From Lacrimispora sphenoides JCM 1415 (GTDB taxonomy: Bacteria > Bacillota > Clostridia > Lachnospirales > Lachnospiraceae): 64,000 bases of DNA. The notes under the pieces were generated by a model. The model made no database searches. It saw only the letters and a program-made list of their open reading frames with translations, and had not been told where the DNA came from. The stretch covers positions 3,794,501 to 3,858,500 of the forward strand of contig NZ_LT630003.1 of NCBI RefSeq assembly GCF_900105615.1. The letters are read 5' to 3'. The position numbers were made by a program, and so were the translations under genes. Numbering within the stretch: position 1 is the stretch's first letter; each line of letters begins with the position of its first letter. This document shows positions 50,921 to 64,000 of this stretch, piece after piece.

Positions 50921-52601
50921 TTAATTCACAGGTGGAGAAGTAACATATTTCGTTGAAAAAAATGCTGCAACAATGGAAATCGGCAGTATGCTCAAGGCCG
51001 TAACCACAGGAGTTATGGGCAACAAAAATGACACATATATTAACCAGCATACTGGTACATACAAAAGTAATATTCCAACACCGAGCACAGTAGCCGCTAT
51101 TAAACGGCCAATATTGTACCGCTCTAAAATTGCTACAAGCAGGAGTCCCAACGTTGGTAATGTGAATAGATAACTAATCGAAATAAAGAAAACAGTGGTT
51201 CCGATAATCAGCAGCATTAGAAGCGGCAGTAAACCTGCAAGTGCTTCGGTTAGTGATTGTTTACGCATCCGGAAGAAAGATATGCCCAGAGTACCAAAGG
51301 TAAGCACCAGGGTTTGGCAAAGGAAAAGCGTTTCAGTATTGCTTGATTCTCCTAAATGCATTATCTGCGTTGCCAATGATGCAATACACCAACTCAGTAA
51401 TGTCATAACAGCTATTGTTCCGATCAGCTGGCCAGTGCTAATGACTATTCCCCTGAATCGGACCCTGCCACGCCTGCTCTGTAAAATGAGCCATAGCATA
51501 GCAGCCAAAACAACAAATCCTGATAGGATATATGCCACAGCATTACTCATTAACACTAAATGGCCAGGCATAAATGGAAAATAAACACCATCTTGTTTTG
51601 AACTGTTGTCCTGAAATTGCTCTTTAGCACTATAATCAGCTATTTCCCGAACAGTTCTCAGATAATTATAGGCTGTTCCAGGGTTGAAGTTCTCATAATT
51701 GTCTGACATTGCACCATAATTCTCAACGCCTTCTGCCACTGTGAAATTAAGTCCAGAATACCCAGCATTTAAAAAATTTGTCATATCAGTAATATTCGGC
51801 ATTTTACGATACAGAGAAGTTGTAAACGAAAAAGCCAAAGGACGGGAATTTGCCAGTTTAAAATATCGCATGAGCTCATAATTATAAGCAGAAGACTCAA
51901 ACATAAGCACTCCTCCACGATTACCCCGACCATCTACGTTAATAACAAGATCAATAGACTCTTTCATTTCTGGATGAGATTCAACAAAGGCTTTAGAACC
52001 AAATGCCCCTAATTCTTCGCCATCAATAGATATCATTTTTCAGATTATTATTTTTTGATTGTTCACGCATAGCCTCAAGCAAAGCGCATACAGAAATCAT
52101 ATCATCTCCTGCACCAGGTGTACCCTTTTCAGTATCGTAGTGAGCCATCATCAATATGCCTCTGTCAGTATTTGGCGCATCCAATTTAACTAAAATATTT
52201 TTTAATATCAATTCATCGTTTTCATTAAAATGAGCTTCATTCCGAATATAGTCTTTTATTTCATTTTCTTCGCCCGGCTCATCACTCAACCCTGATGCGA
52301 TATCATCAATTGTGTAAACCTCAGTTTCAACAATTGGCTCCAATCCCATTTCACAGATTTGCGCCAAAATATGTATGCGCACTGATTCAAGTTCTTTTGA
52401 ACCGGCTGGATGCGGCACTACTGTCATTTCTTTTAAATTGTCAAGCATCTGTTTATAAGCTGTATAATCAGTATCTGATTCAGATGGTAGAACTGGTGGC
52501 TTCATTTGCTGGAGTCCTACCAGAATACCAACCGTAAAAACAATAATCATCAGAAAAACTGGGATCTTTTTATTTTTTAATGATTTCCAAACTGTGTACA
52601 T
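50921..52601 (-). pseudogene. M28-family metallopeptidase with multi-pass C-terminus, broken by a small deletion
   Basis: Two overlapping frames make one protein. The first (52601 to 52023) has an N-terminal anchor and an M28 core with MMAHYDTEKGTPGAGDD. The second (52036 to 50921) continues with DGEELGAFGSKAFVESHPEM, the next conserved M28 metal/catalytic block, then NVDGRGNRGG and about seven transmembrane segments. At the join the coding sequence goes from KNDIY straight to DGEELG, losing about four residues and the frame. The intact family is an aminopeptidase-like membrane hydrolase. A start at 52036 without an anchor would be non-functional. Confidence 0.85.
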
Positions 52602-54305: not shown

Positions 54306-55247
54306 CTAGAACTTAACAAACATTATTCCAATAATAGTCAATACCAGAGCGGCAATTCTTCTACTATCAATTTTCCTTTTTTGTAAATTAAACATTCCAA
54401 ACTGATCGATTGTCAATGCCATAATCATTTGTCCTAGTATAAAAATCATAGTAGTTAAAACCGATCCAAGGACTGGTAATATGATTATGTTACCTGTTAG
54501 AATAAATATTCCAAATATACCTCCTATATAGACCCAAATAGGAATACGATTTTTTTGAGTGTCATACAATGGAAACTCTATTCGCCGTTGAGTGATCAAT
54601 AACAAAATAAGTAAGATAATGGCGCCAACGAAAAAAGAAATAAAAGTAGCTCCTAAAATTGAACCTGTTGCAACACGAAGCTTTCCATTAATTGCGGTTT
54701 GTAATGGTGGTAAAAAACCAGCTAAAACTCCTAAGACTAACCAGGTGATTTTACTGTTCTTTTTCTCCTCTTCTGTGATCGTAATTAAATTTCCTTTCTT
54801 TTTAGGCTGAACCAATGAAATAGCTAAAATCATAATAATAGTACCGATTGTTCTAGTAATACTAATAGGATTCGCCGGTACACCAAACCAGCCAAAGTGA
54901 TCAATTAGTATTCCTACAACCATTTGCCCAGTTACAGTTATTATAGTTGTAACTGAAGCCCCAAGTTTTGAAAATAGAATGATATTAGCCACATTAAATC
55001 CAACGCCAGTTATTGCTCCACCAATAAAAACATACAATGGATATGAAAAATCAATACCAACACTGATTCCTGCAGGATCTACTATTAAATTTATAATGAA
55101 TAGTATAATCGTGCCTAAAGAAAATGCGATAAACGAGGCTGTTAAAGGTGTTTTTGAATAAGAGCTTAAACGAGAACTTATAGACGCCTGAATAGGGAAA
55201 AACATTCCGATAATTATCCCGATAATTAAGTAAAGCATGATTTGCAT
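54306..55247 (-). CDS. DMT-superfamily transporter (DUF606/YdcZ-type)
   Basis: This 313-residue protein has ten hydrophobic segments in two five-helix halves with internal similarity. The first half has GMFFPIQASISSRLSSYS and GASVTTIITVTGQMVVGILIDHFG; the second has GFLPPLQTAINGKLRVATG and GSVLTTMIFILGQMIMALTIDQFG. The DHFG/DQFG repeat is characteristic of tandem DUF606 proteins. The substrate is unknown; efflux of small metabolites is likely. Confidence 0.88.
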   Translation of the reverse strand: MQIMLYLIIGIIIGMFFPIQASISSRLSSYSKTPLTASFIAFSLGTIILFIINLIVDPAGISVGIDFSYPLYVFIGGAITGVGFNVANIILFSKLGASVTTIITVTGQMVVGILIDHFGWFGVPANPISITRTIGTIIMILAISLVQPKKKGNLITITEEEKKNSKITWLVLGVLAGFLPPLQTAINGKLRVATGSILGATFISFFVGAIILLILLLITQRRIEFPLYDTQKNRIPIWVYIGGIFGIFILTGNIIILPVLGSVLTTMIFILGQMIMALTIDQFGMFNLQKRKIDSRRIAALVLTIIGIMFVKF

Positions 55248-55382
55248 AAGTTTTCCTCCCTTTTTTAGTTATATAGGGGTAGTTGAATATACTTTCCCAC
55301 TAATACTGTAAGTAGATTAAATCTTTAATTAGAGTTATAAAAGACTTCTAATATCCGTAATTAGCAAAAAAATAAGAGTGGA

Positions 55383-55787
55383 TTATAAATCCACAGGTAT
55401 TTTCTTCTTAACTAGATCTGATATTTTCTGATTCTTTAACTCTTCCTCCATTTTATCCTCTGCTGAAAGCATTATTTTTTTTATAACACATTCAGACGGA
55501 GAATCTAAGCAGCAATCAAATAAAGTTGATTTACCTTCAATAGCATGTATAATGTCCAAGAATGAAATATCTTCCCAATTTTGACTAAGCGAATAACCCC
55601 CGTTGGCACCTGAAGAAGAATTAATCATACCTTCCTTAGCCAACTTAGTTAATATTTTAGACAGATACGTCGGAGAAACATGTTGTTTCTCTGCTAAATC
55701 CTGTACGCCAACAAACTTTTTAGATGAGTCCATTGCAAGAAAAAGCATCGTGTGAAGAGCATAATTTGTAGCTTTCGAAAATTTCAT
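55383..55787 (-). CDS. Rrf2-family transcriptional regulator
   Basis: This protein of 134 residues starts at MKFSKATNYALHTMLFLAMD (ATG 55787, with GGAGG 9 bases upstream); another in-frame ATG at 55805 overlaps that site. The winged helix is VQDLAEKQHVSPTYLSKILT, and GANGGYSLSQ is typical. Cysteines in FDCCLDSPSECVIKK match the three-Cys cluster-binding loop of Rrf2/IscR/NsrR sensors, so it may sense NO, redox or iron-sulfur status. It probably controls the DMT-transporter, nitroreductase and flavodoxin genes that follow. Confidence 0.88.
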   Translation of the reverse strand: MKFSKATNYALHTMLFLAMDSSKKFVGVQDLAEKQHVSPTYLSKILTKLAKEGMINSSSGANGGYSLSQNWEDISFLDIIHAIEGKSTLFDCCLDSPSECVIKKIMLSAEDKMEEELKNQKISDLVKKKIPVDL

Positions 55788-56076
55788 AACTTGAATCGCC
55801 TCCATTAAAGACTTAATATATCTATAATAGCTTTAAAGTATTGTTTTGTCAAATAGTTTTTTAATTTAGACTTAGCATCAAGTTAAATTAGATTTATTTA
55901 AGGGTTGAATTCTTTATTGTACAGGGCTCAGTCCTTTTAGCATTTAAGTGATCGGAACGAAAAGCACTTGACGGCGGAGTAAACCTCAATAAGCACCTAT
56001 CCAGTTATATAGGTATTGGATAGGTGTTTACTGATCCTTCTAACTTTTCCTTAGTTCGCCATAGTTACATCTTCAC
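55788..56076. other. Intergenic region with hairpin at the recombinase 3' end
   Basis: A 10-bp stem, cacctatcca/tggataggtg (about 55996-56021), lies 55 bases past the serine-recombinase stop and may be its terminator, although no T-tract follows on the minus strand. I see no gene. The left part is the promoter of the Rrf2 gene. Confidence 0.5.
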
Positions 56077-57555
56077 CTACTTCTTCCATACCAGTTTAAT
56101 ATAATCATTATATGTAACAACTGTCTCAATGTAGGAGAATGCTACTGCTCTCTTATCATCTTTGTTAAGTTCCGAAAATATGATCTTTTGCGGAGTTACT
56201 AACTCCTGGATCACCTTAGCCTTTTGATTCATTAGCTTATTCTTTTTTTCAGTAAGCTCTTCCAGTTCTTTATTGACGTATTCCATCGTCAATGCACTAA
56301 CCGTTTTTGTTTTAAGCACTTGCAGAAGATTGGATATGGCTTCATCAATCCTGATGAGTTCAAGTTCGATTTCATTTGTTCCATGAACTGCTTCGATTGG
56401 TGTCGGCTTACACCTATCAAAAAGAGCCTCCAGCTCTTTTTGTACAGATTGTTCAATATCTTCAATCCTCATTTCAAGAGCTATATTGCAATCCAAATAA
56501 TCTTTTCCCCTACACCGTAAGTGGCGGACTGTCTCACCATCTGACTTACGGTTATATCTTCTAACCATGACCGCACGCCCGCAATCTCCGCATCTTAATA
56601 ATCCAGTCAACCAGCTGGTACGTGGTCCATCATTAGGGACCACTTGCTGGTTAGTATCAAGCTTCTGCTGGCATTTTAACCATAATTCTGAATCTATAAA
56701 ACCAGGCCAGTTACCAATAGCGAATGTAGTCTCCTGTGGCTTTAAAGTATCCCTATTGGCAGCTCCTTGTTTACCAACCAACATTCCACCTTGTTTACCG
56801 TCAAATTCTTCTAATGGATTCAAAATGCTTACACCCAGCTTTTTAAAGTAGGTATAAACGGCATGGTCACATTTTACACTAACCGGATTCCGTAGTATAC
56901 GGGCAATGGCGGTGGAGGACCAGTTTTGACTGTTTGGTCCTGGACAATTCTTCTTGGTTAGCTTACGACGTATATCACCAAGGCTTGTTGTCGGATAGGC
57001 ATACATTTTCATGATTTCTTCCAGTATATTTATAGTATCGTCCAGCTTCAAAGAGGATACATTTTTATTTTCCTTTACAATTATGGCGTTGCTATACCCA
57101 TATGGGGCCGGACCGCCAGGCCAACGGCCTAATTCAATTCTTTCATAGTAATTATCGCACACTCTTTTTGATATCTGTTCTCTCTCCAACTGTGCAAAGA
57201 TTGCCATAATAAAAATCATTGCTTTTCCAATAGGGGTTGAAGTGTCAAAATTCTCCGTAACAGAAACGAATTCTACTCCATACTTGCACATATAGTCCCA
57301 GATATTTGCAAAATCCAGGAGCGACCTGGTAAAGCGATCCAGCTTATAAACCAATACTCTGCTTACAAGGCCCTTTTTTATGTCACTTAAAAGTCTCTTA
57401 AATTCAGGTCTGTGAATGACATCCTTTCCTGATATTCCTCTATCAATATATATTCCTGGTTCACCCACTGCAATGCTCCTGGCAAAATTCAATTGCGTTT
57501 CGATGGATAAACTATCTTTCTTGTCAATTGACTGTCTGGCATAAATAGCATCCAT
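56077..57555 (-). CDS. Large serine recombinase
   Basis: This 492-residue recombinase has an N-terminal resolvase domain with catalytic Ser9 in YARQSIDKKDSLS, SGKDVIHRPEFKRLLSDIKKG and the arginine motif VYKLDRFTRSLLDF. A recombinase domain (about 160-260) follows, then a zinc ribbon (LLRCGDCGRAV...RCRGKDYLDC) and a C-terminal coiled coil (about 390-450). Such enzymes integrate and excise phages or transposons at short att sites. It lies at the right end of the A+T-rich island and may be its integrase. Confidence 0.94.
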   Translation of the reverse strand: MDAIYARQSIDKKDSLSIETQLNFARSIAVGEPGIYIDRGISGKDVIHRPEFKRLLSDIKKGLVSRVLVYKLDRFTRSLLDFANIWDYMCKYGVEFVSVTENFDTSTPIGKAMIFIMAIFAQLEREQISKRVCDNYYERIELGRWPGGPAPYGYSNAIIVKENKNVSSLKLDDTINILEEIMKMYAYPTTSLGDIRRKLTKKNCPGPNSQNWSSTAIARILRNPVSVKCDHAVYTYFKKLGVSILNPLEEFDGKQGGMLVGKQGAANRDTLKPQETTFAIGNWPGFIDSELWLKCQQKLDTNQQVVPNDGPRTSWLTGLLRCGDCGRAVMVRRYNRKSDGETVRHLRCRGKDYLDCNIALEMRIEDIEQSVQKELEALFDRCKPTPIEAVHGTNEIELELIRIDEAISNLLQVLKTKTVSALTMEYVNKELEELTEKKNKLMNQKAKVIQELVTPQKIIFSELNKDDKRAVAFSYIETVVTYNDYIKLVWKK

Positions 57556-57954: not shown

Positions 57955-59901
57955 TTATCCAAAGCCCTTGAAAATAGTCTGCATATTCTTTTTTACAGCT
58001 TTTAGCAGTTCTTTAGGAAGCTTCTCCACTTGTTCTCCTAAAATTATGCCGTGAGGCTCCTTGTAGCCGTCATTCCATACAAAATTAAATGTTCTTTCGC
58101 TGGCTGTACTGTTCTTTCCGATTTGAAAAGCGTAAAGGGCAACATCTTTCGATAAAAGCTCTTGGACAGCATCCTTAGTCAGGCCGGGAAAACTGGAGGC
58201 TCCGTCAGTAATTTCAAAAACTATTTTTATATGCTTTCCCATTTTAAGCTGCCTTTCTTCTTCTGGAGTGATGCTTCCGGATATTTCTTTCAAGCAGCTT
58301 GCATCGTCTGTAGCGCCATCGGTGGAATTAAGCCTTACGATGGAACGGATAATATCCGCTGATTCTTTCTCTCCGGAGGTTGTTTCGTTAAATTCTTTCA
58401 TATGATAATATTGACTTCCGAAAAACCATGTTTCACTTAAGACTTCTATTTTCTGGTTTAATTGTTCAGCATTTCGTTTAAGATATCTGTTCAAATCATC
58501 AATTGACAGTAACGTTACAGCCAGCGCTTCTCTTGCAGATTCAATCTTTGCAGCATTCATGGAGCCTGAATTATCTATAATAAAAGAAATTTCGATTCGT
58601 TCCGGCAATTTATCTGCTTGGGTTTCCAACAAATATCTACTGAATACGGGAAGATTTTTATAATTTCCTTTTCTCTCCGCCTCTACAAAATCCGGATAGG
58701 CGGCAATAAAGCTGTTAACGTCCAGCTTGCCTTTTATTTGCCCGTCTTTTTTTACGCTGATTTCTTTTTTGGCATCTCCAATAAGTTTACTCCAGAATTG
58801 ACGCATCTGCTCTCTTTCTGACTTCATTTTATTTGAATAATACTGAAAAAGCTGCTGATCATTCTGGCTAATGCCGTAAGATGTTAAGTCGACCTTTCCA
58901 GTCATTATATTTTGAACTATTTCATTGTTTTTCTCCTGCTGGTCCAGCATCTCTTCAAGGATCTTTTTTACTTCTCCCTCAGTGGATTCCAATGTATCCC
59001 TTTTTTCTTCTTTTGATTGTTCAAAAGGGCTTTTTCTTTCACTTAACTGTTCCTGAGATGCACCATGGGATTTAAAAAAGTCCATTGCATCTATTTCTTC
59101 TTTCCATAATTGCTCAAATACAGGATAAATAAAAGAGCGAATCAGGGAATCTCTTTCTAAAACACCTTCTTCGCTGTTTATCTGCCTTACTAATTGAGAA
59201 TGAATGAAATCCAAAAAAGGCTGATTCAATATCCTTTTGCTGAATGGATCCTCACCCCATTCTTTCATCTCAGGCGTCGTTTTATAAATTTCCTTAAGGA
59301 TAAAACTATTGATAAATGCCCTGTGCTTTGGCATTTCATCAATAGCCTTCCTTTTATTGCCTGTCTGCTCCATATATGCAGCTATCTTTTTAAAATTAGC
59401 TTCATCTCTGTAAACTGGGCACATTTGCAGTACCCTTAAAAAGGAAGTCAGCTTATCCAGCCTGTACAAAGCATCAAGTATTTCCATTTTAACATATCCG
59501 GTTATAATATCCGGCTGATATGCGCGATCTCCTCCAAGGCCTTCTTTCTCAATGCGATGAAGGATATATCCGGTCATTCTGTCTTTTTCTTTTTTCCACG
59601 CTTTACCTCTGTAGAGATAGGCTTTCGTTTGTTTTTTCCAATCGGGATACATGGCAAGCTCATAATAAATATGCCATAGAATCTGATTTTCGTCTAAGTC
59701 CCTGTCCAAAAAAGCCGTAAGCGGAAGATATAATATGCCCTTGGACGGATTTAATAAAAATCTTTCAAGCTTTGGATCAGGCATATACATCAGGCTGGAA
59801 TCCCCTGTAAATGTAGCTAATGTACGCTGCTCTCTCTGCAAAAAGGATTCCACATGTTTTGTTGACTCTTCGATCAGCTTCTGTTCATCATAATTAGGCA
59901 A
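57955..59901 (-). CDS. VWA-domain protein of an AAA+/VWA system
   Basis: This 648-residue protein has a mostly helical N-terminal part (1-300), a charged linker (about 280-330) and a C-terminal von Willebrand A domain from about 436. The MIDAS residues are complete: DNSGS at 443-447, Thr527 in NSTDGATDD and Asp566 in FEITDGASSF. An HIYYE segment near residue 74, in LDENQILWHIYYELAMYP, sits where VWA proteins of the CobT-like group carry a degenerate zincin motif (weak). It is the last gene of a three-part operon with an AAA+ ATPase and a propeller-like protein, 13 bases after the latter. MoxR-type ATPases act with VWA partners in assembly, metal insertion or conflict. Confidence 0.85.
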   Translation of the reverse strand: MPNYDEQKLIEESTKHVESFLQREQRTLATFTGDSSLMYMPDPKLERFLLNPSKGILYLPLTAFLDRDLDENQILWHIYYELAMYPDWKKQTKAYLYRGKAWKKEKDRMTGYILHRIEKEGLGGDRAYQPDIITGYVKMEILDALYRLDKLTSFLRVLQMCPVYRDEANFKKIAAYMEQTGNKRKAIDEMPKHRAFINSFILKEIYKTTPEMKEWGEDPFSKRILNQPFLDFIHSQLVRQINSEEGVLERDSLIRSFIYPVFEQLWKEEIDAMDFFKSHGASQEQLSERKSPFEQSKEEKRDTLESTEGEVKKILEEMLDQQEKNNEIVQNIMTGKVDLTSYGISQNDQQLFQYYSNKMKSEREQMRQFWSKLIGDAKKEISVKKDGQIKGKLDVNSFIAAYPDFVEAERKGNYKNLPVFSRYLLETQADKLPERIEISFIIDNSGSMNAAKIESAREALAVTLLSIDDLNRYLKRNAEQLNQKIEVLSETWFFGSQYYHMKEFNETTSGEKESADIIRSIVRLNSTDGATDDASCLKEISGSITPEEERQLKMGKHIKIVFEITDGASSFPGLTKDAVQELLSKDVALYAFQIGKNSTASERTFNFVWNDGYKEPHGIILGEQVEKLPKELLKAVKKNMQTIFKGFG

Positions 59902-59914
59902 GCCCCTTCCCCTC

Positions 59915-60517
59915 CTACTGATATAACGGCAAATCCCACAAAGCTTCTGGGGTATCGATTCTGTTAATATTTAGTGTGCATAATTCGCCTTCTACCCCCA
60001 TCAGCAAATACTTTGATGGATAAAGCTTCAGCACATCGGTAAAAAAGGCCCCTTCCATAATTGAATCCTTATTGATATGCCATTTTCCGAAATTTTCTTC
60101 CAGCAAATATATAATTCCGTCTTCGCTTAATATTACGGCTGTTCCTTTTGAAGACTCTGCATCAAAAAGATTCCCTTTAAGAAAATCTCCTTCATCAAGA
60201 ATGTTTATATCCATCCCGTCAAGAGAAATGATATGAAGCTTACCATTATTCCCTATGGACAAAAGAGTATCCTTCTGCCCCTTTTCATTTTCGAGATTAT
60301 GGATTTTGCGTATTTCGCAATCTGGAATTTTAATTTTATTTACTATAGAAAGATTATTATAGTTCCGATTTATTAAATATATTTCTCCTGTTTTGGTGCC
60401 GACGGCAAAATCATCCGCTCCTGTTTTCTCCATTCCGATTATGTTTGAAATAGGAAGAGAAGCGTCTTTATGGAGTATCAGGCGGTATTCTTCTTTTTCT
60501 TTAACTACTTCCAGCAA
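59915..60517 (-). CDS. Beta-propeller-like protein, C-terminal half (split by TAG)
   Basis: This 200-residue stretch contains repeated four-strand blades, such as DDFAVGTKTGEIYLINRN, LLSIGNNGKLHIISLDG, AVILSEDGIIYLLEENFGK and YLLMGVEGELCTLNINR. It is in the same frame as the upstream ORF, from which it is separated only by TAG (60530-60532) and four sense codons. It may be made by reinitiation at TTG 60517, which has AGGAAGAG 5 bases upstream, or by readthrough, or it may be the dead end of a pseudogene. The function is probably a protein-interaction scaffold. Confidence 0.65.
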   Translation of the reverse strand: MLEVVKEKEEYRLILHKDASLPISNIIGMEKTGADDFAVGTKTGEIYLINRNYNNLSIVNKIKIPDCEIRKIHNLENEKGQKDTLLSIGNNGKLHIISLDGMDINILDEGDFLKGNLFDAESSKGTAVILSEDGIIYLLEENFGKWHINKDSIMEGAFFTDVLKLYPSKYLLMGVEGELCTLNINRIDTPEALWDLPLYQ

Positions 60518-60529
60518 AACCAGCTCTTC

Positions 60530-61150
60530 CTACTCTCTTTCCGCGGCTATCAAATTATCGCTTACGGACAGGCATTGGCCAAACCAGCTCATTCCTGTTT
60601 CTGTCTCTATCTTATTTATATGCATCTCCCCGACTCCATTGGGGATTTGTTTAAAATTGCTGCATGATAATAAATACCCGCCGCCTTTGCTTCCAAGAAG
60701 CAGAATTTCATTCTTATTAAGCCTGTGAAAGGCCGAGATTTTTTCTTTCATATCTTTAAAAGGCGGACTCCATTCCTCCTGAATCCTTTCCTTGCCGGAA
60801 GGTTCCGTTCTTTTGCTTATCTGAAAAAACCGCAATGCACAATCTGTGCTTCCGGTAATAAACATATCCTCGGAAAACCTTAAAACACTTTGTAAAAATC
60901 CTTCAAAGCCACAGGCTCCCAGCCTTGTTATAAATTCTGTTTTTATGGCGTCTTTTGAATTTCCTGTATATGCTCTGTAATGGGGAATCATCTCCGTAAG
61001 AAGCTTTTCCTCCTTAGCTGAAAGCGCTTCAAGACATTTTTCAAAATCATCTTCTAAAATGCCTGTTTCCCGAGTTTTATTTAGTTTTTGCCTTAGGTCT
61101 TTTACCTGCTTTTTAAATTCTTCCTCATCAACCGATAAATTCAGCTTCAT
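60530..61150 (-). CDS. Beta-propeller-like protein, N-terminal half (ends at in-frame TAG)
   Basis: About 206 residues starting MKLNLSVDEEEFKKQVKD at 61150, 1 base after the ATPase stop and with GGGAGG upstream; a start at 61180 inside the ATPase gene is less likely. Residues 1-90 are helical and charged. From about 95, blade-like repeats begin (MFITGSTDCALRFFQISKR, EILLLGSKGGGYLLSCS). It stops at TAG and the frame continues as the next ORF. The combined product would be about 410 residues. Confidence 0.7.
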   Translation of the reverse strand: MKLNLSVDEEEFKKQVKDLRQKLNKTRETGILEDDFEKCLEALSAKEEKLLTEMIPHYRAYTGNSKDAIKTEFITRLGACGFEGFLQSVLRFSEDMFITGSTDCALRFFQISKRTEPSGKERIQEEWSPPFKDMKEKISAFHRLNKNEILLLGSKGGGYLLSCSNFKQIPNGVGEMHINKIETETGMSWFGQCLSVSDNLIAAERE

Positions 61151-61151
61151 T

Positions 61152-63254
61152 TTAGCCTCCCTTATTCTCCAAATGCTCAAGGAGAGCTTTTGAATGTTCT
61201 AAATGGGATAATTTCTGATCCAGCAGCTGATATTTTTTTGCATCAATCTTAAGCGTATCTTCCAGGTCTGATTGAAAAATATTCTTTAATTCTTCCGGTA
61301 TATTTTTTCTTTGGGTACCCTTTCCAAAAAGCATATGAACTACATCCAAATGGCTCAAGGTCTGGGTTTTGGGGCGAACATAGCGATAAGGGCGGGTTCT
61401 GATTTCGTCGTAAGTGGTGGTTGATTCTCCTATGCCTTTGGTTTCAATCTTCCAGCCTTCCTCTGCCGGAAAAAAGCCAAAGCGCACCGCCTGAGAAAGA
61501 ATATAATTCTGATCGTCGGAATAAGTGATAGAGCTTATAAATCCGTCCCACAGGGCCTTGCTTAAATCCTTTTCTTCTCCTTGATTCCAATTGTCCAAAA
61601 CGTGCAGAATATTTCTTATGGACAATACGGATTCTCTAAGCTCCAGCTCCCCGCCGGAAAAATCCTTCTGCTCTTCATCCTTCCATTTGCCCATAAATAC
61701 ATTTTGGGTAACACGGCAAAGCTGAGAAAACCGAAACAGCTCTTCAAGGGTCCTTTTGGGATTGGGAATTTGAATAGTTCCGTTGGCATTCGAAAGTCTT
61801 GCAATAATAACCCTGAAAAGTTCATTTTTTTCCGGGTCTGCCTGTTCTTCCATAGAGCCTTTGGTATTCTGGGAAACGTAATTATATTCTATAGTTACAA
61901 ACCGGGATTTAAACGCAGGGTTAAGCTCGTTTGTACCTTCGTAATTAACCATCTGGGTAGACAGATTTCCTGTTCCTATAAATGCAAACCCCGGCTTAAT
62001 CAATACAGGGCCTACCCCTGTAATATAAGCCGTATGCCCTGCATGGTGCTGCAGTATATCGTTTAATCCAATGAGATTCTGCATTGCGATGGTGTTAATC
62101 TCATCAATAATTACAGGCCGGCCTTCTTTTACCGCGATTAATATTTCCTTCTCAATTTTCTTGATTTCCGTACCGAAGGCACTGTTACTTGCAACCAATA
62201 AATCGGAGAAGCTGTTCCATATCTGTATTTTAAGCTGAAGCTTTTCTTCTACCGTCATCTGCTGAAGCTTATCTTCGTTTTCATGCAGCCACTGATAAAA
62301 ATCTCCGATGATCATATCCAGATAATCATGATAGGATTTTTGAGAAAAGCTATGTTTAAGCGTCAGTGTCTTCTCCACAAACATATCTTCATAGGTCAGA
62401 TTGTGAGAACCGGATATAAAGAGCGGCTGTAAAGATTCTATCTCTTCTTGCGTTCCATTTGTCAATATTTCCTTATAATACTGCTTTCGCTGTGTATATA
62501 TCTCCTTGAATTTTTCAATAGCCTCTTTTTCCCCGGCCTTTGGATTGGCACTATACCATTTCTCCAATTGATCTTCTAGTTCTGCCTGAATTTTATTCTG
62601 TATTGAAAAGTCCATGGCGGCTTCCGCGGCAAGCTGGGTCTTTCCGCTTCCTAAATGCCCTACAATATAAACCGGCATTCCAAGGTTTAAAGAATCTATT
62701 ACCTTTTCCTTTGCTTCCATTACATAAGGAACCGTTACTAAGCGCTGCTGATGCTGGGTTTTTATATCACTCAGCAATTGACGGGTATGATAAAATTCCC
62801 ATGCTTCGGCTGAGCTGTCCAAAAGCTTTTCTATCTCTTTTTTTAAACGCTCTATACGGTCAACCCTGTATCTCGTAGCGGAATTACTTCTGTGATGGGA
62901 ATAATTATTGCTCTCATAGCTGATCCGCCTTTCCCATTTAAGAAAAAAAGTCTCGTACTCAATAAGAGTTTCAATTTCCTCTATTGTCAGACCCTGATTT
63001 GCTGTTTCCTTTTCAACATAGGCCCTGTATTTTTCAAAATATTCAATGTCTGTATTTTCATCTGTCACAGAGCTTTCGCTTTTTTCTTCAAATCTTCTAA
63101 AGGCCTTGAAAAAGCTTTCTTGCCCGTCTGTAACTTTATTGTGCTCATCCTCTAATAACTGTGAAGCTTCCTTTCGCAGCTGGTTTTCATACTGCTCCTG
63201 CATGGCTTCAATTGTGGGAATACAGCGCGGTTCAAAGTCGTGTTTGTCCTTCAT
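61152..63254 (-). CDS. AAA+ ATPase of a MoxR-VWA-like system
   Basis: This 700-residue protein has an N-terminal charged helical region (1-185), then an AAA+ core. Walker A is GHLGSGKT at 199-206, Walker B is RPVIIDEIN at 379-387, sensor 1 lies in FIGTGNLSTQ (425-434), and a conserved block NYEGTNELNPAFKSRFV (437-453) resembles the MoxR/dynein-type arginine-finger segment. The 170 residues between Walker A and B are unusually long and hold SGSHNLTYEDMFVEKTL, a substrate-loop-like insert. The C-terminal 250 residues are helical. It would remodel or load a target together with the VWA protein encoded two genes downstream. Confidence 0.88.
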   Translation of the reverse strand: MKDKHDFEPRCIPTIEAMQEQYENQLRKEASQLLEDEHNKVTDGQESFFKAFRRFEEKSESSVTDENTDIEYFEKYRAYVEKETANQGLTIEEIETLIEYETFFLKWERRISYESNNYSHHRSNSATRYRVDRIERLKKEIEKLLDSSAEAWEFYHTRQLLSDIKTQHQQRLVTVPYVMEAKEKVIDSLNLGMPVYIVGHLGSGKTQLAAEAAMDFSIQNKIQAELEDQLEKWYSANPKAGEKEAIEKFKEIYTQRKQYYKEILTNGTQEEIESLQPLFISGSHNLTYEDMFVEKTLTLKHSFSQKSYHDYLDMIIGDFYQWLHENEDKLQQMTVEEKLQLKIQIWNSFSDLLVASNSAFGTEIKKIEKEILIAVKEGRPVIIDEINTIAMQNLIGLNDILQHHAGHTAYITGVGPVLIKPGFAFIGTGNLSTQMVNYEGTNELNPAFKSRFVTIEYNYVSQNTKGSMEEQADPEKNELFRVIIARLSNANGTIQIPNPKRTLEELFRFSQLCRVTQNVFMGKWKDEEQKDFSGGELELRESVLSIRNILHVLDNWNQGEEKDLSKALWDGFISSITYSDDQNYILSQAVRFGFFPAEEGWKIETKGIGESTTTYDEIRTRPYRYVRPKTQTLSHLDVVHMLFGKGTQRKNIPEELKNIFQSDLEDTLKIDAKKYQLLDQKLSHLEHSKALLEHLENKGG

Positions 63255-63381: not shown

Positions 63382-63476
63382 TTATTTGTACAGTAAACGA
63401 AATTAAAAACCGTTATAGGACTTTAGAACCTTTCTTACACGGAATCTGTACATTTTTTAACTTGACTGGCTATAAA

Positions 63477-63511
63477 TTAAAATCCCGGCTTTAAAAAAAC
63501 CGGGATTTTAA
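63477..63511 (-). terminator. Terminator after the oleate hydratase gene
   Basis: ttaaaatcccgg and ccgggattttaa pair perfectly over 12 bases with an 11-base A-rich loop. The remainder of 63382-63476 is A+T-rich with no gene seen. Confidence 0.8.
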
Positions 63512-63543
63512 CCTTTTTATCTAATTTCACAGCTTTGGTTATT

Positions 63544-64000
63544 TTATAAAACCCCACAATCTTTCAGCATTACCTCAATGTCCGTTCCTGCTAATTGCTT
63601 CATAATCTTGCTTTTTTTAAGAGGAGGCAAGTCTATTTCCAGTTTTTCTCCGTCAAGCAGACATACGCCTGCGCTGAGAAGATAACGAATATCGTAACGG
63701 GAAGCAAATACTTCGGGAACACCCTTTTCCACTCCGGTTAAAACATATACGGCTTCCATAGCTGTACGTCCGGAATATTCAATGGTAAATACTGTATCGC
63801 GGCCGGGATCATCCAATGTTTCAGCAAACTGTCCAAGGAAAGCAAAGTTTACTGCATTCTTAGGAACTACATAAGGACGGTCACCAGATTCACGGGGCAT
63901 AAATTGAGAGGTTATGAACGGCATCATTACTGGGATCGCTGTACATGTATTGGCTAACTCCTCTATTTCATCAACAGGCACTCCTATATGATACAACCAT
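63544..64000 (-). CDS. Oleate hydratase, C-terminal part (runs off the window)
   Basis: The visible 152 residues include FITSQFMPRESGDRPYVVP, NFAFLGQFAETLDDPGRDTVF, EYSGRTAMEAVYVLTGVEKG and VPEVFASRYDIRYLLSAG. These are typical of the end of FAD-dependent oleate hydratases (formerly myosin-cross-reactive antigens), which convert oleate to 10-hydroxystearate and detoxify unsaturated fatty acids. The frame continues past base 64000 (Trp codon at 63999-63997), so the true start is outside. Confidence 0.92.
   Translation of the reverse strand, partial: WLYHIGVPVDEIEELANTCTAIPVMMPFITSQFMPRESGDRPYVVPKNAVNFAFLGQFAETLDDPGRDTVFTIEYSGRTAMEAVYVLTGVEKGVPEVFASRYDIRYLLSAGVCLLDGEKLEIDLPPLKKSKIMKQLAGTDIEVMLKDCGVL

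Follow-up and report, generated by a model that had tools for sequence, protein, structure and literature searches.

Three adjacent genes of Lacrimispora sphenoides JCM 1415, encoding an AAA+ ATPase, a propeller-like middle protein and a protein with a von Willebrand factor A (VWA) domain, lie directly behind a gene for a predicted oleate hydratase (OhyA), an enzyme catalysing the hydration of unsaturated fatty acids. We propose with moderate confidence that this trio is a dedicated ATP-driven machine for the remodelling of OhyA, built from a MoxR-like AAA+ protein, a VWA protein and a propeller adaptor, and that it forms the accessory half of a cassette. This reading is favoured because of the tight gene linkage, the precedents among MoxR/VWA helpers and the uptake of fatty acid by OhyA from the bilayer. 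The analysis started from a window of 64,000 nucleotides (the whole stretch NZ_LT630003.1, positions 3,794,501 to 3,858,500) in a single-contig genome of 5.3 Mb. Among named organisms its closest relatives belong to Lacrimispora: the AAA+ protein shares 96% identity with the L. celerecrescens 152B copy, and the VWA protein 94% with a Lacrimispora record. The initial annotation covered 57955..63254 and proposed a conflict (defence) role. That range contains the three-gene module but omits the upstream TetR and OhyA genes, and inclusion of the OhyA gene, which is cut by the window edge, changes the reading: a helper of a fatty-acid enzyme is more likely than a system of defence against viruses.

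In L058, a stretch fetched around the window locus and reaching past the window edge, the minus-strand order is TetR, OhyA (603 aa), AAA+, middle (propeller) and VWA, and the regulator upstream of OhyA matches TetR_N and TetR_C_8 (L-, G- and P-numbers are handles of loci, genomes and proteins in the comparison; G000 is the window's genome). The AAA+ frame, the two frames of the middle gene and the VWA frame are separated by gaps of 1, 12 and 13 bases, the frame coordinates bearing out the tight packing that had been noted earlier. The main features are:

63544..64000, minus strand: 3' part of the OhyA/MCRA (oleate hydratase) gene, cut by the window edge; the fragment matches PF06100 (MCRA) with E 3.5e-31
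L058:6545-8356: whole OhyA gene, full frame of 603 aa; solved oleate hydratases match, best E 1.9e-197
63474..63514, minus strand: hairpin between the OhyA and AAA+ genes, perhaps a terminator or attenuator (shuffle test)
61152..63254, minus strand: predicted MoxR-like AAA+ ATPase, 700 aa (AAA_5 in 15/15 aligned members; conserved motifs)
62637..62660, minus strand: Walker A GHLGSGKT, AAA+ residues 199-206
62100..62114, minus strand: Walker B VIIDE, AAA+ residues 381-385
59915..61150, minus strand: middle-protein gene, broken by an in-frame stop (frames, relatives, Pfam profiles)
60530..60532, minus strand: in-frame TAG interrupting the middle gene; single-frame copies exist in relatives
57955..59901, minus strand: VWA protein, 648 aa (PF00092 in 36/36 aligned members)
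58561..58575, minus strand: D-x-S-x-S (DNSGS) of the metal ion-dependent adhesion site (MIDAS), VWA residues 443-447

Linkage of the module with oleate hydratase

Patterns built from the AAA+ protein alone found 46 loci in the scan of species genomes, and loci from further genomes were added for neighbour clustering. The scans of species genomes and of plasmid, phage and viral records may omit records very near the window's genome; the protein searches kept the best 120 of at most 8000 scored candidates, where distant relatives with another partner may be missed. All 51 AAA+ loci have an OhyA gene as the immediate upstream neighbour on the same strand, namely 50 with a called AAA+ frame and L039, whose AAA+ frame was not called and whose OhyA is present by neighbour clustering (L009 and L051 are probably one genome, L015 has only the OhyA end on its contig, and OhyA is split in L028). 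A VWA frame is found in 45 of the 51; the other six lie at contig or locus ends (L011, L038, L039, L051) or are masked (L035, L046). A TetR gene lies upstream of OhyA in 37 of 50 loci and downstream of VWA in two (L026, L042), and none was seen in 11. Besides the module, the groups met next most often among neighbours up to 9 kb away are a TetR-like one (35 loci) and one that we take to be transporter-like (21 loci, in scattered places). The gene order is retained down to about 40% AAA+ identity (L059), and in L038-L040 as far as the contigs reach.

The same association was observed in taxonomic samples. Strong AAA+ matches occur in 8 of 391 genomes of the class, all eight with a same-strand OhyA match at most 491 bases away, and an OhyA match over the cut-off occurs in 57 of these genomes. 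In the genus, 4 of 25 genomes have the AAA+ module, each with an adjacent OhyA, and 24 of 25 have OhyA; the family sample of 250 genomes holds three strong AAA+ carriers, and the sole strong match among 398 genomes of the phylum is the window's own. Weak AAA+ matches, all below 22 bits over some 70-115 residues, were not counted (3 of 6 matching genomes in the family, 7 of 15 in the class and 4 of 5 in the phylum). Among the genomes sampled, the trio comes with OhyA, whereas many OhyA genes occur without the trio. Conserved co-occurrence of the AAA+, middle and VWA genes, which the initial annotation had asked about, is present both across the loci and in the class genomes, and the arrangement of single-client MoxR/VWA helpers, with an AAA+ gene next to a VWA gene and one enzyme gene, recurs across genomes.

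The upstream gene is predicted to encode an oleate hydratase by full-length homology. The OhyA of the window's cassette scores 668.5 bits against PF06100 (cut-off 23), and its RGGREM segment and glycine-rich N-terminal segment, the latter presumably nucleotide-binding, align with a solved chain that we take to be that of S. aureus. It belongs to the same family, over the full length, as the oleate hydratases of S. aureus and Lactobacillus, the presumed sources of the solved chains (best E 1.9e-197), and differs from them by four extra residues and by the AAA+ module linked in 58 of 67 rows of its clade. In a tree of 113 OhyA rows, a single supported clade of 64 contains all 58 linked rows; the addition of three further unlinked members brings it to 67 rows, 58 linked and nine unlinked, with support 100/100. 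The bootstrap of the OhyA tree had not settled, nine pairs of linked rows, with branches of zero length, probably each represent a single locus that carries two handles, and the trees held part of the OhyAs, with loci given for 30 matches each in the genus and class scans. The placement of L136 and L146 is unsure, since these two long rows join each other; in the 113-row tree L136 stands open at the clade base. The clade shares a four-residue insertion at positions 515-518 of the window OhyA, which is a gap in 49 other aligned OhyAs and is also lacking in the S. aureus-type solved chain. The linked/unlinked label requires eight changes within the clade, and at least five of these fall on branches with good support. 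In the 67-row tree the linked rows L038-L040 form the deepest branch, which points to an early link with later losses. A second OhyA of the window's genome (G000:C1:4550902-4552374) belongs to another clade and has no module; its close group has rows from 18 of the 25 genus genomes.

In the 29 loci with all five genes, protein distances are correlated between AAA+ and VWA (r 0.985), AAA+ and middle (0.958), TetR and OhyA (0.950), and OhyA and AAA+ (0.867), with 0 of 999 permutations as high in each of these four cases. Two blocks emerge, TetR-OhyA (0.950) and AAA+-middle-VWA (0.951-0.985), with correlations of 0.769-0.892 between them. The ratio of nonsynonymous to synonymous substitution rates (dN/dS) is 0.035-0.22 for TetR, OhyA, AAA+ and VWA in three or four congeners.

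Module proteins and the broken middle gene

The AAA+ protein is tentatively assigned as MoxR-like by its sequence. Of the AAA_5-type core and helix-2 insert that mark the MoxR clade, the core is recognised by AAA_5 matches in all 15 aligned members (E up to 0.01), and GHLGSGKT is invariant among aligned relatives except for the nearly invariant S203. Walker A and Walker B, both conserved among relatives, are about 175 residues apart, in agreement with the long insert of about 170 residues recognised from the window alone. Also conserved are GTGN and NPAFKSR, which we take to be sensor-1-like and Arg-finger-like motifs, respectively. The VWA protein has a conserved N-terminal region and a C-terminal VWA domain (PF00092 in 36 of 36 aligned members); at E up to 0.01 these 36 proteins matched VWA families and none of the propeller families. 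Its MIDAS residues DNSGSM 443-448, T531 and T565-D566 are invariant in the 36, and the earlier description of a complete MIDAS therefore holds. The profile searches that had been recommended for each protein were likewise productive, with matches to AAA_5, PF00092 and, for many of 38 middle proteins, propeller families.

The middle protein had been described as helical plus propeller-like. Its propeller character is supported by Pfam profiles, but its gene is not intact in the window. Two frames of 216 and 200 aa (60530-61150, from its ATG, and 59915-60517) share one reading frame and are parted by TAG at 60530-60532. In 42 of 51 loci, including the three nearest (L002, L060, L061), the gene is one frame of 388-443 aa; the nine exceptions are split (L058 of the window, L043, L047), short (L059, 208 aa), fused to AAA+ (L040), masked (L035, L046) or at a contig end (L038, L039). 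Since the TAG splits one reading frame that 42 loci keep whole, the window's genome has a broken copy of this gene. The idea of two separate genes, for a helical and a propeller protein, was rejected on the same single frames and on the shared reading frame of the halves. Translation may restart at TTG behind the stop, or the TAG may be a sequencing error; the loci come from assemblies of mixed quality, in which faulty sequencing may account for broken frames. For the middle gene, dN/dS is 0.23-0.49 in congener pairs except G000-G020, where it is 0.94/0.60 from only 4 synonymous changes each; relative to L002 there are 11 amino-acid changes in the N half and 10.3 in the C half of G000, and 18 and 9 in G020. 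From these values and small counts, the stop looks recent.

Beta-prop_ACSF4 is matched by 19 of 38 middle proteins, and others match further propeller families (E up to 0.1; best about 1e-5) in a Pfam scan for which 25 of 47 families were seen. L002, the first member of the set, has no propeller match at this threshold, and a profile search of solved structures with the middle protein gave weak WD40 matches, best E 0.013. Thus the protein is propeller-like, on profile evidence, after an N-terminal part of about 60 residues, which is probably helical and is kept even in the 208-aa version of L059. Mean identity of the middle protein is 0.38, vs 0.61 for AAA+, so that it evolves fast. Two natural fusions join it to AAA+: P0061 (1110 aa), in which the middle profile aligns with residues 701-1110 (hhalign 100%), and L040 (1043 aa; 97.4%) of a deep lineage. 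These fusions argue for direct contact of the two proteins, and of the earlier suggestion that the propeller protein is a sensor or an adaptor, the adaptor half is thereby strengthened and the sensor of a conflict system is left unsupported.

A proposed helper of oleate hydratase and its alternatives

Relevant precedents come from published systems. MoxR AAA+/VWA pairs are reported to mature or modulate single enzymes (PMC9976466, PMC13036017, PMC10585395), and are described as capturing part of the client with the VWA domain and reshaping it with ATP (PMC7159879). RavA-ViaA is reported to bind phospholipids (PMC9489729), and S. aureus OhyA to take its fatty acid from the membrane bilayer (PMC10847778). 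By analogy, the AAA+ protein would form a ring and serve as the docking site for the middle protein, which would attach through its N-terminal part; OhyA would be held jointly by propeller and VWA domain, and ATP turnover would pull it to an active or released state, either off the membrane or freed of stuck product or of mis-set flavin. Such an action would resemble that of NorQD on nitric oxide reductase, and the TetR protein would induce the cassette in response to incoming fatty acids. That an undescribed ATP-driven machine pulls OhyA, or its bound fatty acid, off the bilayer is a tentative suggestion, made with clearly less confidence than that of a dedicated machine.

Comparison with characterised families places the module in none of them. 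NorQ-NorD serves nitric oxide reductase, and CbbQ-CbbO serves Rubisco. Here, too, an AAA+ protein of AAA_5/MoxR kind lies beside a VWA gene and one enzyme gene, and help for a single client is proposed, but the neighbour is a flavin-dependent fatty-acid hydratase and a third, propeller part is present. The Pfam family of CbbQ_C type, named, as we presume, for the C-terminal domain of CbbQ, was matched neither by the window's AAA+ (E up to 1) nor by 15 members (0.01), the NorQ and CbbQ proteins themselves not being compared; the GvpN model gave 15 bits vs a cut-off of 266.8. RavA-ViaA of E. coli is likewise an AAA+ and VWA pair, reported to act at the membrane and on enzymes. However, LARA, AAA_lid_8, RavA_C, bpMoxR and VWA_CoxE, present in the E. 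coli controls, were not matched here, and hhalign against the module gave 2.0% (RavA) and 9.0% (ViaA). For YehL-YehP it gave 1.1% and 5.5%, and VWA_CoxE of YehP was unmatched in the module VWA. Since the tested features were not found, the module was not filed in the RavA-ViaA, YehL-YehP, CbbQ/NorQ/GvpN or MoxR-vWA-propeller groups; the three proteins do not fall together into one characterised set, and the first impression of an operon matching no named system holds in the families scanned (Pfam, PADLOC, GvpN model).

A three-part MoxR-VWA conflict system against phages, with the propeller protein as sensor, was the earlier view and now appears very improbable. It would fit the fast evolution of the middle protein and a general likeness to the MoxR-vWA-beta-propeller conflict systems (PMC7159879), as MoxR, VWA and propeller parts occur in both. 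Unlike in those systems as they are described, the propeller here is a separate protein and the host belongs to Bacillota; their P-loop is often GXXXTAKS and some of their VWA proteins lack the MIDAS aspartates, whereas here GHLGSGKT and a full MIDAS are found. Their bpMoxR family (PF20030) was matched by none of 15 AAA+ members at E up to 0.01, while the RavA control matched with 1.5e-56. The constant partner is a metabolic enzyme, usually with TetR, and among the Pfam families seen there is no effector domain. PADLOC gave weak matches for three of four module frames (mad8 13 bits, PRTase_III-A 15, ZorA3 13.1, Csx19 12.4; E 0.0029-0.037), which we take as chance, and none for ten window neighbours (E up to 0.01). 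AAA+ relatives were not found in 72,556 plasmid records, 50,697 phage records and viral contigs. On the OhyA context, the weak PADLOC matches, the lack of phage, plasmid and viral relatives and the Pfam family tests, a defence system was rejected.

Two further explanations deserve more weight. The trio may act on the membrane or on fatty acids itself, for example by shifting lipid domains or extracting free fatty acids from the bilayer, and so be a second arm of one fatty-acid stress response, with OhyA as a co-regulated partner and not a client; we regard this as unlikely, though less so than the other alternatives. RavA and ViaA are reported to bind phospholipids and to alter the lipids of the membrane (PMC9489729), the module evolves as its own block, and OhyA clade members exist without the trio nearby. 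A general lipid machine would need no OhyA, yet the trio never lacks an adjacent one in the sample (51 of 51 loci, 8 of 8 class carriers). Somewhat less probable again is that the cassette spreads by transfer and that the trio, having another task, is tied to OhyA by shared travel alone. Carriers are indeed scattered (4/25 in the genus, 3/250 in the family, 8/391 in the class, 1/398 in the phylum), and the cassette occupies different chromosomal places in near relatives: in G006 the G018 site is empty (194 bases vs 8,834) and its own cassette lies on another contig. Long co-travel without shared function would nevertheless be odd, given the same order in L059 and L038-L040.

Several observations weigh against a dedicated OhyA machine. 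Contact of the module with OhyA is a proposal from gene linkage, and common ancestry alone could explain all the distance correlations, those across the two blocks being below those within. A hairpin stands between the OhyA and AAA+ genes. The window's genome carries a broken middle gene, and split module genes occur at several further loci. A profile search of solved structures with AAA+ returned no MoxR protein, the subfamily and folds being sequence-based predictions. Inside the OhyA clade, module presence is no more clustered than shuffled labels (177/500 as low), and a search for OhyA residues marking it found none that sets linked apart from unlinked members. Moreover, nine OhyAs of the clade have no module nearby: a search of the 11.5-12.6 kb stretches around them for AAA+, middle and VWA proteins gave no match (E up to 1e-4), and none of their genomes is a strong AAA+ carrier in the class sample, if the same 391 genomes were drawn. 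OhyA therefore does not strictly need the module.

Oleate hydratase is of interest for biotechnology, for the conversion of fatty acids in the gut by bacteria and for the way in which bacteria tolerate antimicrobial fatty acids. To our knowledge, it has been studied as an enzyme working alone. A machine that pulls OhyA or its bound fatty acid off the bilayer would be the first energy-dependent step in oleate hydration known to us, and OhyA would then be a new class of client for AAA+/VWA machines. Through the tight genetic link, MoxR-VWA systems gain a new candidate client with an easy assay (10-hydroxystearate), for which the nine natural OhyAs without a nearby module are ready-made controls. 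The case also warns that a MoxR-VWA-propeller set need not be a conflict system. A literature search, with most subscription journals outside its coverage, did not find oleate hydratase (or myosin-cross-reactive antigen) together with MoxR; an S. aureus expression study mentions oleate hydratase, AAA and von Willebrand together.

Regulation, movement and surroundings of the cassette

Among 50 OhyA-AAA+ gaps, of which three were too short to test, 44 of the 47 testable ones contain a hairpin whose score is reached by at most 1 of 60 shuffles (plain base shuffles, T-run not demanded). A stricter terminator scan with T-run does not include the window's hairpin at 63474..63514. Given a hairpin after OhyA, the module may be expressed at a lower level or from a separate start. 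Hairpins, scored without shuffles, also follow unlinked OhyA genes, and the hairpin was consequently rejected as a marker of module presence. The region shows no excess of promoter-like matches (16 vs 14.9 by chance). Eight of 50 loci, all outside Lacrimispora (L003, L004, L005, L007, L013, L020, L022, L044), have the exact palindrome GTTCGAANTTCGAAC upstream of OhyA, and a second palindrome, TATTTGCAAATA, lies upstream of TetR in 6 of 37, including the window's; both are candidate operators, GTTCGAANTTCGAAC possibly for TetR. Extra DNA before the AAA+ gene was considered as a repeat element and dismissed, as the genome has one copy.

Within the genus, DNA homology with G018 and L002 covers the cassette alone and stops at the VWA gene. 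A serine recombinase (56077-57555) adjoins the cassette here, as had been noted, and in G020; it is not at the cassette in G018 or L002, and the recombinase was excluded from the unit. No transposon ends were seen in the flanks inspected. A short GGATA occurs at both cassette ends, and three species (L061, L058, L002) share the start TCGGATA and an end near GGATAA; these sequences are short, possibly due to chance and possibly a recombination core.

Around the cassette, a collagen-like repeat protein of 671 aa is encoded upstream of the TetR gene (L058:10971-12986); its repeat region aligns with G020 solely as many short pieces. At 50921-52601, two frames match different parts of Peptidase_M28; this gene looks split and is the second broken gene near the cassette. 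The window has about 1.35 kb (54632-55982) that the otherwise collinear G020 lacks, with a regulator of Rrf2 type and the first part of a gene for a YdcZ-type exporter. Finally, two long genes behind the divergent cassette of L059 (L059:11547-14587) presumably encode part of a 2-hydroxyacyl-CoA dehydratase and its activator.

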